A stretch of DNA of 20,211 bases, from IMG/VR virus record IMGVR_UViG_3300022602_003284, positions 1 through 20,211 of that record; one strand, written 5' to 3'. The translations under genes and the position numbers were made by a program. Position 1 is the stretch's first letter. Each line of letters opens with the position of its first letter. The notes under the pieces are model-generated. The model saw nothing but the letters and a program-made list of their open reading frames with translations. It made no database searches and was not told where the DNA came from. This DNA comes from a virus. Below, piece by piece: positions 4,147 to 15,763 of the stretch.

Positions 4147-6453
4147 ATGACAAGCATTCAAGTAACAAAAAGAAATGGTAGCAAAGAACTACTGGATTTA
4201 GAAAAACTACACCGAGTAGTAATTTGGGCAACAGAGGGCATAACTGGAGTTAGTGCTAGCGAAGTAGAAATAAAAAGCCACATACAGTTTTACAACGGAA
4301 TTCGAACTACCGATATTCAAGAAACCTTGATCAAGAGTGCTGCAGACTTGATAAGCGAAGAAACTCCCAACTACCAATACGTTGCCGGACGTTTAATCAA
4401 CTATCATTTACGCAAAGAAGTTTACAACAACTACAAGCCATGCACATTACTTGAACTGGTCAAAAAGAATACCGCCGCTGGTTTTTATGACTCGGCATTA
4501 ATTACAACCTACACAGAAAATGAATGGGCACAATTAAATGATTATATTCGACACGAGCGTGACGAAACATTTACCTATGTGGCCATGGAACAGTGGCGTG
4601 GCAAATATCTAGTACAAAACCGTGTTACTGGAGAAATATTTGAAACTCCGCAAATGGCCTATATGTTGATTGCGGCCACACTGTTTCAAAAATATCCAAA
4701 AGAAACAAGATTACAATGGGTTCGAGATTATTATGACGCTATTTCAAATTATGATGTTAGCTTGCCTACTCCGGTTATGGCAGGTGTACGCACCCCGCAA
4801 AAACAATTCAGCAGTTGTGTTCTTATTGAGTCTGACGATAGTCTTGACAGTATTAATGCCACTAGTAGTGCGATTGTTCGCTATGTGAGTCAAAAGGCCG
4901 GTATTGGCTTGGGCGTTGGTGGCATACGTGCACTTGGTTCGCCAATTCGCAATGGCGATGCTTATCACACCGGTATCACTCCGTTCCTAAAACTGTTCCA
5001 AGCAGCAACACGTAGTTGTAGCCAAGGCGGTGTACGCAACGGTGCTGCTACTGCTTACTATCCCGTATGGCATCTTGAAATTGAAGACATGCTGGTGCTA
5101 AAGAACAACAAAGGCACAGAGGATAATCGAGTACGCCAGATGGATTACGGCGTACAATTCAACAAATTAATGTACGAAAGACTTATTCAAGGCGGCAATA
5201 TTACCTGTTTTAGCCCGCATGATGTGCCCGAAATGCGAGATGCTTTCTATAACGATCAAGATCGATTTAAAGAATTATACGAGCGAGCCGAACGCAATAC
5301 AAAACTACGCAAGAAGACATATCCAGCAGCCGAACTGTTTGCCCGGTTCATGCAGGAACGTAAAGACACCGGACGTATCTATTTGCAAAACATTGACCAT
5401 GCAAACACACATAGTCCGTTTGATGAAGCACTGCATCCAATTAAGCAGAGCAATTTGTGTGCCGAAATTGACTTACCAACTCGTCCGTTAAAAGACATTA
5501 ACGATCCCGATGGCAGAATTGCATTGTGTACCTTGAGTGCCATCAACTGGGGCAATGTTAAAAGTCCCCGTGACTTTGAGAAAATGTGTACACTGGCAGT
5601 GCGTGGACTAGATGCATTGTTGAGTTATCAAAACTATCCGGTGCTGGCTGCCGAGTTAAGCACACGAGAATTTAGACCGCTAGGTATTGGCGTCATCAAC
5701 TTGGCCTACTTCTTGGCCAAGCACGATGCCAGTTACAGTGATCCCAAAGCACTGGCCTTGGTAGATGAATATGCCGAAGCATGGAGCTACTACTTGATCA
5801 AGGCTTCGGCTGACTTGGCACGTGAACAAGGTGCTTGCGATAAATGGCAAGAACTAAAGTATGCCGATGGTAGATTGCCAATTGACACGTACAAACGAGA
5901 AGTTGACGAGCTAGTACCACACCAAGAGCGTATGCCGTGGAGAAGTTTGCGAGAACAAATACTCAACACCGGCATTCGCAATGCCACACTAATGGCCGGA
6001 ATGCCAGCCGAAACTTCGGCACAAATATCAAATGCCACAAACGGATTTGAGCCACCAAGAAACTATGTAAGTGTAAAGCAAAGCAAACACGGTGCTTTAC
6101 GACAAGTAGTACCCGAATATAGAAGACTAAAGAACAAATACGAATTGTTATGGGATCAACGCAGCCCCGAAGGCTATTTAAAAATCTGTGCAATATTTCA
6201 AAAATACATGGACCAAGGCATCAGTGTCAACACTTCGTACAATCCCAAGTTCTACGAAGACGAAAAGATCCCCATGAGTGAAATGCTCAAGCACCTGGTC
6301 CTGTGCTACAAGTACGGAATCAAACAACTTTATTATTTCAATACAAACGATCAAGCTGGCGAAATCGACGTTACGTCATTGGCATTCAACAAGCAAGAAA
6401 CAACTAGTCAAGAAAGTATAGATCAAGAATCTTGTGATTCTTGTGTTATTTAA
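4147..6453 (+). CDS. nrdA: Ribonucleoside-diphosphate reductase, class Ia, alpha subunit
   Basis: The 768-residue catalytic subunit that reduces ribonucleoside diphosphates to deoxyribonucleotides for phage DNA synthesis. An N-terminal ATP-cone-type domain (about residues 3-95, starting IQVTKRNG) suggests dATP/ATP control. Active-site residues align one position before the E. coli numbering: Cys224 (FSSC), Asn436-Leu-Cys438-Ala-Glu440 (NLCAE), Cys461 (ALCTLS), and the radical-transfer pair Tyr729-Tyr730 (QLYYFN). The C-terminus ends ESCDSCVI, giving a Cys763/Cys766 shuttle pair that a glutaredoxin or thioredoxin would reduce. The length matches the family, so it appears intact. GAGG precedes the ATG at good spacing. 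It is separated from nrdB only by a homing endonuclease gene. Confidence 0.98.
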   Translation: MTSIQVTKRNGSKELLDLEKLHRVVIWATEGITGVSASEVEIKSHIQFYNGIRTTDIQETLIKSAADLISEETPNYQYVAGRLINYHLRKEVYNNYKPCTLLELVKKNTAAGFYDSALITTYTENEWAQLNDYIRHERDETFTYVAMEQWRGKYLVQNRVTGEIFETPQMAYMLIAATLFQKYPKETRLQWVRDYYDAISNYDVSLPTPVMAGVRTPQKQFSSCVLIESDDSLDSINATSSAIVRYVSQKAGIGLGVGGIRALGSPIRNGDAYHTGITPFLKLFQAATRSCSQGGVRNGAATAYYPVWHLEIEDMLVLKNNKGTEDNRVRQMDYGVQFNKLMYERLIQGGNITCFSPHDVPEMRDAFYNDQDRFKELYERAERNTKLRKKTYPAAELFARFMQERKDTGRIYLQNIDHANTHSPFDEALHPIKQSNLCAEIDLPTRPLKDINDPDGRIALCTLSAINWGNVKSPRDFEKMCTLAVRGLDALLSYQNYPVLAAELSTREFRPLGIGVINLAYFLAKHDASYSDPKALALVDEYAEAWSYYLIKASADLAREQGACDKWQELKYADGRLPIDTYKREVDELVPHQERMPWRSLREQILNTGIRNATLMAGMPAETSAQISNATNGFEPPRNYVSVKQSKHGALRQVVPEYRRLKNKYELLWDQRSPEGYLKICAIFQKYMDQGISVNTSYNPKFYEDEKIPMSEMLKHLVLCYKYGIKQLYYFNTNDQAGEIDVTSLAFNKQETTSQESIDQESCDSCVI

Positions 6454-6460
6454 AAATAAT

Positions 6461-6468
6461 CATAAATA
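6461..6468 (+). promoter_or_regulatory. Late-promoter-like box CATAAATA before the first homing endonuclease
   Basis: CATAAATA differs from the T4 late consensus only at its first base and lies just after the nrdA stop. A start 6 nt after the box would be at 6474, giving a 16-nt leader with AAAGG before the ATG at 6490. That transcript would lack nearly all of the left arm of the hairpin at 6466-6491. Late control of homing endonucleases is known in T4 (I-TevI). Confidence 0.5.
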
Positions 6469-6491
6469 ATTATGTTGAAAGGCATAATTAT
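6466..6491 (+). promoter_or_regulatory. RBS-sequestering hairpin at the homing endonuclease start
   Basis: A perfect 9-bp inverted repeat: ATAATTATG (6466-6474) pairs with CATAATTAT (6483-6491). The 8-nt loop TTGAAAGG (6475-6482) holds the Shine-Dalgarno AAAGG, and the right arm includes the A and U of the AUG at 6490. In a transcript reading through from nrdA the start region would be folded. A transcript begun at the late box would lack the left arm. The stem has only one G-C pair, so its stability should be modest. Confidence 0.55.
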
Positions 6492-7164
6492 GGAATACAT
6501 AGGGTTTATATACGAATGGACAAATTTAATAAACGGTAAGAAATATATAGGTTCGCATAAAGGAAAAATTGAAGACAATTACATCGGAAGTGGGAAATTA
6601 TTTAAATATGCCATTAAAAAATATGGTATTGAAAATTTTGAAAGGAAAGTATTAGAATATATTAAGGACAATACTACATTAAAATTAAGAGAACAGTACT
6701 ATCTTGATTTATTTGAATGTGCATCGTCTGATTTATACTATAATATATCTTATTCTTCTACAGGTGGTAATATGGGACAAAATTATAAAATCATATCAGA
6801 AAGAATGAAAGAAAATAATCCCAATGCTGGCGGTATAGCAAGACGAGAATATAACAAAAAATACGGATCTCCAAATAAAGGATGGACCCCAACAACCGAA
6901 TTTTATAAAAAATGTCGAGAGAAGAAATTAGGCGATAAAAATCCTCGTTATGGCAAGCCTGGTACAATGAGAACAACTACATACCTATTAGACCCAACAA
7001 CTAAAGATATTACATTTACCTTTGACTGTTTAGCCGACGCCGAAGCTAAATTAAATGCAAATCACGCTAGTGTGTATTATAATAGGAAAAGAAATGCCCC
7101 GTATCGCGGTTACTATTGGTGCGTGGGCGAAGCAGAATTACAAAAACAAAGAGAAACAATATGA
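6490..7164 (+). CDS. Free-standing GIY-YIG homing endonuclease with NUMOD3-type motifs
   Basis: A 224-residue site-specific endonuclease. The N-terminal GIY-YIG domain shows GFIYEWTN and KKYIGS (GxIY...YIG). One or two NUMOD3-like DNA-binding motifs follow ([15 protein letters not shown]). The C-terminus ([12 protein letters not shown] to GYYW) resembles a NUMOD1/HTH-like DNA-binding unit. I prefer the ATG at 6490 to the in-frame ATG at 6472, because AAAGG lies 7 nt before it and the GIY-YIG domain begins at once. The gene is plainly richer in A+T than nrdA and nrdB (some lines are only 20-30% G+C by eye), as expected of an acquired mobile gene. Its stop overlaps the nrdB start as ATGA. It would promote its own spread by cutting phages that lack the insertion; the target is probably in or near the nrdA/nrdB junction. 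Confidence 0.88.
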
Positions 7165-8288
7165 CAGTATTCAACATAAACAATAAAACAAAACACACCG
7201 AAGCATTAGCGTTCTTGGACGCCAGCGGCACTGCTAGTATTCAACGCTACGAAACTGTAAAGTACAGACAATTCGACAAACTCACAGACAAACAATTAGG
7301 ATTTTTTTGGCGTCCTGAAGAAGTTGATACACTAAGGGATGCCAAAGACTTTAAAGACCTAACTCCATTTGAACAACATATATTCACAAGTAATTTAAAG
7401 CGACAAATTGTATTAGACAGTGTGCAGGGTAGAAGTCCTAATTTGGCCTTTCTACCTCTTGCCACAATACCCGAACTAGAAACTTGGATTGCTACCTGGG
7501 CATTTAACGAAACAATTCACAGTAGAAGTTACACACATATTATTCGCAATGTGTACAGTGATCCTGGTGCAGTATTTGACAGTATCCTTGACATCGAGCC
7601 CATTGTAAATTGTGCTCGAGATATTAGCAAGTATTACGATGATTTGATTGAAGCCAGTCATTACTATCAGTTGTTGGGATATGGTCGACATACAGTAAAT
7701 GGAAAAACAGTCAACATTACCGAACGTGATTTAAAAAAGAAATTATGGTTAGCACTTAATAGCGTTAATGCGTTAGAGGGCATTCGCTTTTATGTTAGTT
7801 TTGCCTGCTCGTGGGCATTTGCCGAACTTAAAAAGATGGAGGGCAATGCCAAGATTATTAAACTTATTTGCCGTGATGAAAACATACATCTGGGATTTAC
7901 ACAAACTGCATTAAAGTTATTGCCACAGGATGATCCAGTATATGCCGACATCCGTGAAGAAACACTAGCGGAATGTACACAAATGTTTTTGAGTGCAGGA
8001 CAACAAGAAAAAGATTGGGCCAAGTATCTGTTCAAAGATGGCAGCATGATCGGACTTAACGAACAATTACTAAGTCAATATGTAGACTGGCTCATGTGCA
8101 AGCGTATGACTGCTGTGCATTTAGACTGCGGCATCAAGCCCGGATCAAATCCTTTACCCTGGACTGCCAAATGGATCGCAGGTTCAGAAGTGCAAGTGGC
8201 ACCTCAAGAAACCGAAATCTCCAGTTATGTCATTGGCGGAACCCGACAAGACGTCGATTCGAATACTTTTAAAGGCTTCAGTTTATAA
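7161..8288 (+). CDS. nrdB: Ribonucleoside-diphosphate reductase, class Ia, beta subunit
   Basis: The 375-residue radical-generating subunit partnering NrdA. The diiron ligands and tyrosyl radical site align two positions after E. coli NrdB: Asp86 (VLDSVQG), Glu117 and His120 (NETIHSRSY), radical Tyr124, Glu206 (ALEGIRF), Glu240 and His243 (RDENIH). The C-terminal tail ([10 protein letters not shown]... FKGFSL), which docks on the alpha subunit, is intact. A longer frame opens at 7116, but the extra 15 residues lie inside the homing endonuclease gene. The ATG at 7161 gives the normal family N-terminus, overlapping the upstream stop by 4 nt (ATGA). Expression therefore probably depends on read-through from nrdA and coupling to the endonuclease gene. 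Confidence 0.98.
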
Positions 8289-8292
8289 ACGC

Positions 8293-8320
8293 AATAAATA
8301 CACTATAACAAGGATTTATT
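8293..8320 (+). promoter_or_regulatory. Late-promoter-like box with overlapping inverted repeat before the 104-aa gene
   Basis: AATAAATA (8293-8300) fits the TAAATA late-type core. Its first 7 bases (AATAAAT) pair perfectly with ATTTATT (8314-8320), directly before the ATG at 8321; the loop ends with the Shine-Dalgarno AAGG (8310-8313). A late start near 8306 would remove the left arm. All seven pairs are A-U, so the hairpin would be weak. The leader shares CTATAACA with the leaders at 12100 and 15748. Confidence 0.4.
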
Positions 8321-12350: not shown

Positions 12351-13655
12351 ATGCTCAAAGATAGTTTTTGTTCCAGTCCGTGGTTCCACCTCCGTCTCAC
12401 CTATGATGGTAATTTTGAAGAATGCCGTTGGCACAAGGCCAAATCCGACGGGACAAATATCAAAACTCACAGTATCATGGAGTTTTACAACAGTGATCGC
12501 ATGCAACAGTTGCGTACAGATTTATTGAATGGACGCAGTCCCAAAGGATGTGCAAACTGCTATTATCAAGACCGATTTGACAAACTCAGTGGACGTAAAA
12601 GACAGTTGCTTAAAAGTGCCATAGACATTGACAATTTTGATTTGACTGCTCGAGCCAGTCCGCATTACGATCTCTTTGTACACAGTTTCGATACTCGAGG
12701 GCATGCCAATTACCATCCCACAGATTTACAAATAGACCTAGGCAACATTTGTAACAGTGCCTGTATCATGTGCACGCCTTTTGCCAGCAGCCGCCTAGAA
12801 CAAGATTATAAAAAATTATACCAAATAACGCCGTTATTTGAAAATCCAAAAAATTATACATCTTGGACACGCAATCCCGAAACCGTGGCACGAGTAGTGG
12901 ATCAAATCAGTCTGATTCCCAATTTGCGTTACGTACACTTCTTGGGCGGCGAAACATTGTATGATCCTGCCTTCTATGACATTTGCGAACGATTAATTGC
13001 CAACAACACTGCCAAAAACATCATAGTGGGCACAACCACAAACGGTACAATTTATGATCAACGTGTTGAACATCTTGTGCGAGAATTCAAAGAATTCCAT
13101 TTGGGCATCAGTATCGAAAGCGTTACCGAATTGAACGATTATGTACGCTATCCGTCCAAGATATCGGTAGTTAAACACAATATAGATAAGTTTTTGCAAT
13201 TGAGAAATGACACAAAACTTTATGTAAGTTTGCGTATCACTCCCAATGTTTTTACCGTCAGCGAAATAGATCAATTATTTGAATACATGATTGAAAAAAA
13301 TGTCATAGCCGAAAGTTGCGACATACTCACTGATCCGGCACCGTTGCAAATACAATTGATGCCCGAACCAATAAGAAACACCACGCTTGCCAAAATCAAT
13401 CAAGTGATAGATCGCTATCAATTGGAAAAGACCGATCAAACAAACATTCGCAGAAGCGATATAATCAGTGATGTTATAGCCAATGTCATAATTGACTATA
13501 GAAATTTTATCAGAGACTATCAGCCGTTGTTGGAAACTGAACAATTGCGAACACAATTGGTCACGTTCATAAAAGCGTTTGAATCACTGAGAAACAATAG
13601 CATACTAGACCATGTGCCCGAATACAGAAACTTTCTCAAAGATTACGGATATTGA
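12351..13655 (+). CDS. Radical SAM protein with N-terminal twitch-type cysteine domain
   Basis: A 434-residue radical SAM enzyme. Residues 1-75 form an N-terminal cysteine domain: Cys7 (SFCSSPW), Cys25 (EECRW), Cys67 and Cys70 (GCANC), a plausible auxiliary [4Fe-4S] site. This matches the family called twitch-domain-containing radical SAM protein, in which the auxiliary domain precedes the barrel. The SAM cluster motif is CNSACIMC (Cys134, Cys138, Cys141), followed by GGE at 199-201 and a TTTNG strand. The C-terminal 150 residues are helical and may bind substrate. The reaction is unknown; the fold family includes peptide and protein modifiers. It starts 4 bases after the 74-aa gene and overlaps the next gene by 44 bp. 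Confidence 0.82.
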   Translation: MLKDSFCSSPWFHLRLTYDGNFEECRWHKAKSDGTNIKTHSIMEFYNSDRMQQLRTDLLNGRSPKGCANCYYQDRFDKLSGRKRQLLKSAIDIDNFDLTARASPHYDLFVHSFDTRGHANYHPTDLQIDLGNICNSACIMCTPFASSRLEQDYKKLYQITPLFENPKNYTSWTRNPETVARVVDQISLIPNLRYVHFLGGETLYDPAFYDICERLIANNTAKNIIVGTTTNGTIYDQRVEHLVREFKEFHLGISIESVTELNDYVRYPSKISVVKHNIDKFLQLRNDTKLYVSLRITPNVFTVSEIDQLFEYMIEKNVIAESCDILTDPAPLQIQLMPEPIRNTTLAKINQVIDRYQLEKTDQTNIRRSDIISDVIANVIIDYRNFIRDYQPLLETEQLRTQLVTFIKAFESLRNNSILDHVPEYRNFLKDYGY

Positions 13656-14029: not shown

Positions 14030-15112
14030 ATGACTATACACACTACTCCCCGAATTGGCTTCTGTTGCAAATGGCTCAACGACCCCACCGAATGCGGCGG
14101 CATGAAGGTAAATGCCAAAGATCGCGAGCTGAACGGTCGAAGCACCACCATGCGTTGGCTACGCGAACACAAAAGCGAGGCCGAACAACGTCAGTGGGAC
14201 ATTATGAACCACAATGCTGCGGCCGCGGTACGCTTGATCGAACGTGTGGCCACGCTACCGCCCGAGCGTAGAATGGTGCGATTGGGCAGTGAAATGCTAC
14301 AAGGCTATACCGAAAAAGACTGGACTGCTTGGTGGCAACGGCAAGAGATACAGGATCACTGTGCTAGGATATTTGCACCCATTGGCGAAACTGCTCGACG
14401 TTTGGGTGTGCGTATCAGTTTCCATCCCGGACAGTTTTGTGTGCTGGCCAGTGAAAACGAAGAAATAGTAAATAGAAGTATTGAGGAGTTTGAGTATCAT
14501 GCAGACATGGCCCGTTGGATGGGATACGGCGTTCGATTCCAGGACTTTAAGATCAACGTCCACATATCCGGGCGTAAGGGTCCACAAGGAATCAAAGACG
14601 TATTTGGACGTTTATCACCAGAGGCTAGAAACTGCCTTACAATTGAAAACGACGAAATGTCTTGGGGCCTTGACGCCAGCCTTGAACTCGCCAACACCTG
14701 TGCACTTGTACTTGACGTACACCACCACTTTGTCAGAACCGGAGAGTATATCAAGGCGAAAGATGATAGATGTCTACGTGTAATTGATTCATGGCGAGGT
14801 GTCCGCCCAGTGATACATTACTCTCAGAGCAGAGAAGATGTACTCAAAGGACACGATGTTAACAAACTCCCCAATCTTGAAGAATTATTATCACAAGGAT
14901 ACAAAAAACAAAAACTCCGTGCACATAGTGATTTTATGTGGAATAGTGCTGTAAATGATTGGGCTAGAGAACATTGGGAATGGGCCGATGTGCAAGTCGA
15001 AGCAAAAGGGAAAAATCTAGCTAGTTTACAATTGACGGAGTTCTGGAAAGGCAGTAAAGATACCATGAGTCCTATTCTTGAGATTGAAGCAGACTCCGCG
15101 GCCAATTCCTAA
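14030..15112 (+). CDS. uvsE: UV-damage endonuclease (UvsE/UvdE family)
   Basis: A 360-residue TIM-barrel endonuclease that nicks DNA 5' to UV photoproducts and related lesions, starting repair without a photolyase. The N-terminus (RIGFCCKWL) is the family's first strand. Metal-site segments are in order: His132 (FHPGQF), Glu206 (TIENDEMSWG), Asp229 and His231-233 (LDVHHHF), PVIHYS, RAHSDFMW and the final Glu of QVEAKGKN. All expected segments are present, so it should be active. The last 28 codons (from about 15026) lie antisense to the reverse-strand homing endonuclease gene; this tail (TEFWKGSKDTMSPILEIEAD) follows the conserved core and may be a late addition. Expression is expected to be early, from the consensus promoter at 13995-14023. 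Confidence 0.95.
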   Translation: MTIHTTPRIGFCCKWLNDPTECGGMKVNAKDRELNGRSTTMRWLREHKSEAEQRQWDIMNHNAAAAVRLIERVATLPPERRMVRLGSEMLQGYTEKDWTAWWQRQEIQDHCARIFAPIGETARRLGVRISFHPGQFCVLASENEEIVNRSIEEFEYHADMARWMGYGVRFQDFKINVHISGRKGPQGIKDVFGRLSPEARNCLTIENDEMSWGLDASLELANTCALVLDVHHHFVRTGEYIKAKDDRCLRVIDSWRGVRPVIHYSQSREDVLKGHDVNKLPNLEELLSQGYKKQKLRAHSDFMWNSAVNDWAREHWEWADVQVEAKGKNLASLQLTEFWKGSKDTMSPILEIEADSAANS

Positions 15113-15670
15113 TTTTAAAGATGTTTGGTCAGCAGACAGTCCATTGTTCATTAATTGTATTGCATGTTTATACAATTCATAATTAGGTAAATTTTTCCCT
15201 TTCAGTACAGAAAGTCTTCGTTCCTCGGAACATGGTTCTTTAATACCATACCGAGGATTATTTTTGCCTTTCTTTGACTTAGATAGATTCTGGCACCATT
15301 CTTCTGTTCGAACTATTCCCTTTAGGCTTTTACTTCTTTTTTCTAAAGTTTTCTTGCTTGGGTGCCAACCTTTTTTTGATGGCGGCATTGCGTTCTCGAC
15401 AATATTAGATAAGTTATCAATTCCTATTCTTTTTATTTCCTGTTCCTCGAGAATATATGCAGTATCTTCATCAATATTGAGATGAATAAATTCAACGATA
15501 ACATTTAAATTATTATCTAATATCTTTTTGATTATTCTATCTTTATGTGGATTATTATTACCGTCCTTTAATTTAGTATGTTGGTATGCACGATCTCCCG
15601 AACCCTTTCCTATGTAAAACACAGTATTGGTTCTTGTATCTATTAATTGGTACACATAATATTTTTTCAT
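15026..15670 (-). CDS. Free-standing GIY-YIG homing endonuclease, second copy type, reverse strand
   Basis: A 214-residue site-specific endonuclease. The GIY-YIG domain is at the extreme N-terminus (YYVYQLID, then TVFYIGKGSGDRAYQH), closer to the LEM3-like GIY-YIG form than to the first endonuclease here. NUMOD3-like motifs follow (NNPRYG and the Lys-rich WHPSKKTLEKRSKSLKG). The C-terminus (LSADQTSLKLGIGRGVCFNL) looks like a helix-turn-helix. I start at the ATG at 15670; extension to 15724 would need a TTG and adds residues unlike the family. A late-type box lies 4 nt before the ATG. The gene is AT-rich and its 3' end overlaps the uvsE 3' end by 87 bp in antisense. It is a different endonuclease from the one in the nrd block, so two separate acquisitions are likely. 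Confidence 0.85.
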   Translation of the reverse strand: MKKYYVYQLIDTRTNTVFYIGKGSGDRAYQHTKLKDGNNNPHKDRIIKKILDNNLNVIVEFIHLNIDEDTAYILEEQEIKRIGIDNLSNIVENAMPPSKKGWHPSKKTLEKRSKSLKGIVRTEEWCQNLSKSKKGKNNPRYGIKEPCSEERRLSVLKGKNLPNYELYKHAIQLMNNGLSADQTSLKLGIGRGVCFNLKNRTHGIFTAFPELRQL

Positions 15671-15674
15671 ATTG

Positions 15675-15682
15675 TATTTATG
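15675..15682 (-). promoter_or_regulatory. Late-promoter-like box CATAAATA (reverse strand) for the second homing endonuclease
   Basis: The reverse strand reads CATAAATA, the same octamer as before the first homing endonuclease. T4-type geometry would start transcription at about 15669-15670, on the ATG, so the mRNA would be leaderless. No Shine-Dalgarno sequence is visible. Confidence 0.45.
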
Positions 15683-15737: not shown

Positions 15738-15763
15738 CATAAATACCCTATAACAGGGTATTT
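15738..15763 (+). promoter_or_regulatory. Late-promoter-like box embedded in a hairpin before the structural gene at 15766
   Basis: CATAAATA (15738-15745) overlaps the left arm of a perfect 8-bp hairpin. AAATACCC (15741-15748) pairs with GGGTATTT (15756-15763) around a 7-nt TATAACA loop, and two more T follow. The right arm contains the only Shine-Dalgarno candidate (AGGG, 15755-15758). Read-through RNA would hide it and, with the T run, might terminate. RNA started near 15751 would lack the left arm. Confidence 0.55.

Follow-up and report, generated by a model that had tools for sequence, protein, structure and literature searches.

A predicted late-promoter hairpin switch at a GIY-YIG homing endonuclease gene lying between nrdA and nrdB of an uncultured phage

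The leader of a GIY-YIG homing endonuclease gene lying between the ribonucleotide reductase (RNR) genes nrdA and nrdB of an uncultured phage probably acts as a hairpin switch, through which read-through mRNA would be silent for the endonuclease and a late transcript starting at about position 6474 would be translated. The gene is carried on a 20.2-kb fragment recorded in IMG/VR as a virus (hereafter the window), from a phage known from metagenomes only. As we picture it, the endonuclease gene would have entered the nrdA-nrdB gap by transposition of gene and 36-nt leader as one unit, and there read-through mRNA from nrdA would carry the whole leader and pair 6466-6476 with 6481-6491. The paired leader would hide the Shine-Dalgarno sequence and the AUG, leaving the endonuclease poorly translated. 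Late in infection a gp55-type late polymerase would initiate from CATAAATA, near 6474, giving an mRNA that lacks the left arm of the hairpin, and from this open start the endonuclease would be made. The mechanism had been put forward in an original prediction; it stands as the best explanation of the leader, and pairing is retained, through two-sided changes, in homologs that occupy this site, while the 5' end near 6474, the repression and translation of the two mRNAs and their timing are what we infer from it.

In the window the endonuclease gene (6490-7164; 224 aa) follows nrdA (4147-6453), the large subunit gene of an aerobic RNR and the proposed origin of the read-through transcript entering the endonuclease leader, and precedes the small subunit gene nrdB (7161-8288), all on the plus strand. 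Both RNR products are ordinary class I subunits (Pfam Ribonuc_red_lgC, 3.5e-125; Ribonuc_red_sm, 2.1e-38). The nearest matches of NrdA, at ~60%, are in Stenotrophomonas phage DLP6 and jumbo phages, and a nucleotide search of the nrd region against sequenced or named phages returned zero matches. The intervening product is identified as a probable homing endonuclease by phrog_314 (2.4e-30), by a SegE GIY-YIG match (7.1e-06), by its GIY-YIG alignment and by its insertion relative to an empty site, and its start at 6490 agrees with the N-termini of aligned homologs. The empty site is seen in the nearest relative, L002 (nrdA 95% and nrdB 97% identical), where the nrdA TAA is followed by 10 nt and then the nrdB ATG; by this comparison the endonuclease gene and its 36-nt leader are an insertion. 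Spacings of 10-19 nt are found in many relatives and other relatives hold different cargo, so the nrdA-nrdB gap is a hot spot for insertions; inserts in L002-L081 measure about 440, 630-700, 720, 800 and 1213 nt. At its downstream end the endonuclease stop overlaps the nrdB ATG (ATGA), and the nrdB ribosome-binding site sits within the last endonuclease codons. Comparison of this 3' end, CAAAGAGAAACAATATGA, with the nrdA-nrdB spacer of L003, TAAAGAGAAAGACATATG, suggests that the endonuclease reading frame extends into the former nrdB ribosome-binding site and overlaps the nrdB start codon.

Read-through from nrdA may already be reduced by a weak stem-loop resembling a terminator where that gene ends (6424-6443, plus strand; eight pairs, tail TGTTATTTAA), a point against the switch; the pattern scan that detected it found two such structures against 3.7 expected. 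The perfect 8-bp stem lies in the C-terminal codons of nrdA and is present in the window and absent from the nearby relatives L002 and L003; the C-terminal residues of NrdA are QESCDSC in the window and QEDCDSC in these two relatives. Elsewhere, the window encodes two radical SAM proteins (1535-2506 and 12351-13655).

The T4-type late promoter element CATAAATA occupies 6461-6468 on the plus strand, exactly where it had been predicted, and ends 21 nt before the endonuclease ATG. The prediction of a 9-bp inverted repeat enclosing AAAGG and part of the AUG also agrees with a direct reading: ATAATTATG (6466-6474) is the exact reverse complement of CATAATTAT (6483-6491), the two are separated by 8 nt, TTGAAAGG, and the A and T of the ATG (6490-6492) fall within the right-hand repeat. 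In the predicted fold two U-G pairs (6475-6482 and 6476-6481) lengthen the stem to 11 bp, with a left arm at 6466-6476, a right arm at 6481-6491 that extends into the AUG, and a GAAA tetraloop. The GG of the Shine-Dalgarno sequence (AAAGG, 6478-6482, 7 nt before the AUG) would thus be paired and its AAA left in the loop. Folding of 6455-6500 gave -8.7 kcal/mol against -2.5 ± 1.6 for shuffled controls (z -3.97), with one of 200 shuffles as good. Perfect inverted repeats of at least 9 bp with loops of 3-12 nt number three in the 20.2 kb, where 0.5 are expected, and two of the three coincide with gene starts carrying the late motif. The hairpin is nevertheless AT-rich and modest in strength. When the upstream half of the leader alone was shuffled, 7/60 shuffles blocked the start equally well, so that the window hairpin taken by itself is suggestive rather than overwhelming; among promoters swapped into the leader, 8/80 matched its own hairpin. 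Searches of Rfam with the leader, and of viral contigs with the exact hairpin pattern, gave zero matches.

That ATAAATA serves as a late promoter in this lineage is suggested by its placement. The window holds six copies against 5.6 expected, not above chance, of which five lie directly upstream of gene starts. Within 60 nt of gene starts the motif occurs in the sense and antisense orientations 19 and 3 times in G012 (240 kb) and 25 and 2 times in G009 (320 kb), and genes downstream of it in G009 include those for tail sheath, head-tail adaptor and another virion protein, consistent with a late promoter class that holds in relatives of the window. A gp55-type late sigma factor (phrog_234) was found in two of seven relatives (G016 and G022); its absence from the five other records, which may be incomplete, weighs against the switch. 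A T4-type major head protein is encoded by G009, G016 and G022; searches for phrog_223 and phrog_254 returned zero matches in relatives and controls alike and so carry no information. The -13 base of the window promoter is C, not T, which counts against the switch. The T4 late promoter consists of an 8-bp TATA box lying roughly one helical turn upstream of where transcription starts, and it tolerates deviations at -13 (PMC2988020). The +1 would be expected near 6474. Two other plus-strand copies in the window precede genes in a similar way. One (8294-8300), with a weak inverted repeat, is 20 nt away from the start codon of gene 8321; the other (15739-15745) enters a hairpin (15741-15749 with 15755-15763) that covers the start of gene 15766. 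At this second site a late promoter, a terminator-like stem with a T run and a start codon share one 30-nt hairpin (ATAAATACCCTATAACAGGGTATTTTTATG), a design that recurs before an unrelated gene at L092:12650 and L115:15568.

Evidence for the switch comes from homologous leaders. No close relatives of the endonuclease were found by a single-protein search, and homologs, with N-termini like GFIYEWTN or GFIYIWTN, were reached through alignments and then by a search with L172. They occupy the same nrdA-nrdB position in L269/L431 and in L272, and interrupt nrdA itself in L172, L259 and L411-L428. The window endonuclease is 35% identical to that of L269/L431 and 40% to that of L272 (35-43% among all three), which implies that the layout was either conserved over a long divergence or repeatedly selected. 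ATAAATA precedes the ATG by 20 nt in L269/L431 and by 16 nt in L272, each with its own hairpin. The layout reads ATA-ATTATGTT/GAAA/GGCATAAT-TAT in the window, ATA-GTTAAAA/GGATA/TTTTAAC-TAT in L269 and GCATAAATAATC/GTGGA/GATTGTTTATGC in L272. In the window and L269 the ATA that closes ATAAATA is paired to the first two bases of the ATG and the T preceding them, and pairs 4, 8 and 9 differ between them on both sides with pairing intact. Compensatory change in the arms, which the original prediction had proposed to look for in related phages, is what these nrdA-nrdB homologs display. The nrdA-internal homologs also have promoter and hairpin (-21.6 kcal/mol in L172), and the order of promoter, hairpin, Shine-Dalgarno sequence and AUG is kept across both sets, with arms that have changed and still pair. 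Covariation within the L411 leader group amounted to one two-sided pair and within the L261 group to zero; both groups are too conserved for such an analysis, hence our use of L269 and L272. Against the switch, the hairpin in the L433-L446 group lies between promoter and Shine-Dalgarno sequence and leaves the latter uncovered. By comparison of leaders, the switch reading is well supported.

We expressed the effect of each leader as the free energy required to open the AUG together with the 13 nt preceding it, in the read-through and in the predicted late RNA, with energies predicted at 37 °C on short fragments and leader sets that share some ancestry. For the window endonuclease the cost is 7.3 kcal/mol in read-through RNA and 2.9 in the predicted late RNA; the model thus places over the ribosome-binding site and AUG a structure that the late RNA would be unable to form. 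T4 control genes behave as known under this measure (kcal/mol, read-through/late: I-TevI 14.7/0.7, I-TevII 13.0/0.3, segB 15.4/5.6, e 15.6/1.0, soc 7.9/0.4, gene 49 14.7/2.6). Where ATAAATA lies 12-45 nt upstream of the ATG, the medians over 35 distinct GIY-YIG leaders are 9.0/2.9; 21 of the 35 were equalled by at most 3/60 promoter-side shuffles, and the set is costlier to open than 123 endonuclease leaders that lack the motif (p 2e-5). Own halves cost more than swapped halves both in 32 distinct GIY-YIG leaders (motif-ATG spacing 14-38 nt; mean 11.2 versus 5.4, p 2e-4) and at 58 distinct starts of the relatives' ordinary late genes (5.0 versus 3.7, p 2e-4); matched starts without a promoter gave no effect (p 0.94). 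From the excess at both kinds of start we conclude that pairing between a late promoter and the start region it serves is a tendency of this lineage.

A second arrangement emerged from the spacing of the motif. In 1.46 Mb of relatives the ATAAATA-ATG distance is bimodal, with peaks at 5 and 20 and almost nothing at 10-14. Spacings of 3-9 nt account for 73/181 motif-bearing genes (about 40%) in relatives and 0/21 in T4 (p 6e-5), and ATAAATA-N4-6-ATG outnumbers N10-12 by 80 to 9 in seven relatives, compared with 19 and 22 in ten named phages. The short-layout genes (L087-L159; relatives G009, G012, G013, G015, G022 and G029) include many plainly true starts, such as MKIVIVTGGFDPIHSGH and MIIYKTINKINGKWYIG. 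A Shine-Dalgarno sequence is present in 1/73 of them versus 49/80 at longer spacing, although so short a gap could hardly hold one in any case. If +1 lies about 6 nt past the motif, the 5' ends of these late mRNAs would coincide with the AUG or fall close to it, and we predict the mRNAs to be leaderless or nearly so, a class absent from T4; no paper on leaderless late transcripts in T4-like phages was found in the literature searched. TATAATA has a smaller peak at the same distance (28/121), so leaderless starts may extend beyond late promoters. A second GIY-YIG endonuclease gene in the window (15029-15681, minus strand; ATG 15670-15668) has ATAAATA 4 nt upstream (15681-15675) and a predicted leaderless late start, and endonucleases of G012 and G006 share this layout. 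Its 15029-15112 portion overlaps the end of a convergent endonuclease-family ORF (14030-15112; phrog_8420), and a further short-layout ATAAATA lies at 785-791 on the minus strand. Short-layout endonuclease leaders have a low folding cost (median 4.6). An AUG without a Shine-Dalgarno sequence would work only at an mRNA 5' end and be inactive internally on read-through RNA, so the short layout would need no hairpin. Tentatively, late and mobile genes may thus have two exchangeable silencers, a promoter-built hairpin with a Shine-Dalgarno sequence or a leaderless ATAAATA 4-6 nt before the AUG, with both sorts of endonuclease in the window.

Three other accounts of the leader were weighed. The promoter might be used and the hairpin idle; the inverted repeat would then be a by-product of high AT content and of a near-palindrome present twice in direct orientation, perhaps through duplication of a start region. 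Each arm is indeed nearly palindromic, so that the inverted repeat doubles as a 9-nt direct repeat of ATAATTATG (6466-6474 and 6484-6492) and pairing could arise incidentally, and the hairpin's modest rank among partial shuffles and swapped promoters fits that origin. However, local AT-rich shuffles yield an inverted repeat of at least 9 bp in 1.4% of cases, two of the window's three repeats of this size sit at starts with a late motif, and L269 and L272 keep the pairing at the same site with changed arms; we regard the by-product account as unlikely.

Less likely still, the late transcript could be leaderless or nearly so and translated from an in-frame ATG at 6472-6474, inside the left arm, the hairpin merely weakening internal starts. 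This ATG lies 3 nt after ATAAATA, and many related phage genes have ATAAATA-N4-6-ATG; a distance of 3, however, falls outside the 4-6 peak (one case), so that +1 would come after the A of this ATG. The MLKGII extension it would add is absent from all aligned homologs, which begin at the residue matching 6490, and the well-placed AAAGG serves 6490; we rejected 6472 as the main start. The most improbable account treats the AU-rich start region as an operator, bound by a RegA-like repressor or by the endonuclease, in place of an RNA switch. T4 RegA sites are AU-rich around the AUG, as in gene 44 AAAUUAUGAUU (PMC3014915), and I-TevI represses its own late promoter (PMC2988022), but RegA sites are without structure (PMC3014915) and an operator leaves the conserved pairing with changed sequence unexplained. 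Operator and RNA switch could also act together.

The hairpin switch itself has precedents. Endonucleases with a late promoter and hairpin have been described for I-TevI, I-TevII, I-TevIII, segB and Aeh1 mobE (PMC2988022), and the nearest to the window's gene are, on a par with I-TevI, the free-standing T4 segB and Aeh1 mobE, the latter carried in an RNR gene. Aeh1 mobE, an HNH endonuclease gene within nrdA whose ribosome-binding site is covered by an RNA hairpin (PMC2988022, citing Gibb and Edgell 2007, 2009), is like the window gene free-standing, in an RNR gene and behind a late promoter beside a Shine-Dalgarno-hiding hairpin; it differs in being HNH rather than GIY-YIG and in lying within nrdA instead of in the nrdA-nrdB gap, a position matched by the window's homologs L172 and L411-L428. 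In about 20 contigs the GIY-YIG family divides nrdA into two ORFs, which mirrors the Aeh1 mobE arrangement with another kind of nuclease. T4 I-TevI shares the GIY-YIG class, the read-through fold over the start and the computed behaviour, with ATAAATA 23 nt before the AUG, but is encoded in the td intron and has a far stronger hairpin (14.7 versus 7.3 kcal/mol to open). T4 segB is likewise a free-standing GIY-YIG gene whose CATAAATA, 22 nt before the AUG, forms the left arm against the start codon; it lies in a tRNA cluster and has a longer stem. T4 soc and lysozyme e follow the same read-through and late-start logic, soc being nearest in stability (7.9/0.4), but they encode virion and lysis functions and are not mobile elements. 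T4 mobE occupies the same nrdA-nrdB slot, but is HNH, starts overlapping the nrdA stop and lacks both a late promoter and a hairpin covering its start (PMC2988022).

The proposed benefit of the switch, early expression of the nrd operon without early endonuclease toxicity, is doubtful. The T4 work summarised in PMC2988022 does not support it: with the I-TevI hairpin removed, that review reports no endonuclease effect on phage viability, and it points to intron splicing as the alternative. The enrichment of promoter-hairpin pairing at ordinary late genes likewise indicates that it is not special to an endonuclease.

This type of endonuclease switch was already known; newly added are this member, its relatives in RNR genes, the kept pairing and the lineage-wide pattern. 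The switch, so far documented in a handful of T-even phages, would thereby extend to a large uncultured group, in GIY-YIG endonucleases for which ribonucleotide reductase genes are a recurrent target and whose leaders keep the pairing as the sequence changes. Leaderless-type late starts are a direct genome-wide prediction for these phages, and late promoters that serve also as one half of a repressing hairpin may be a general habit among them.
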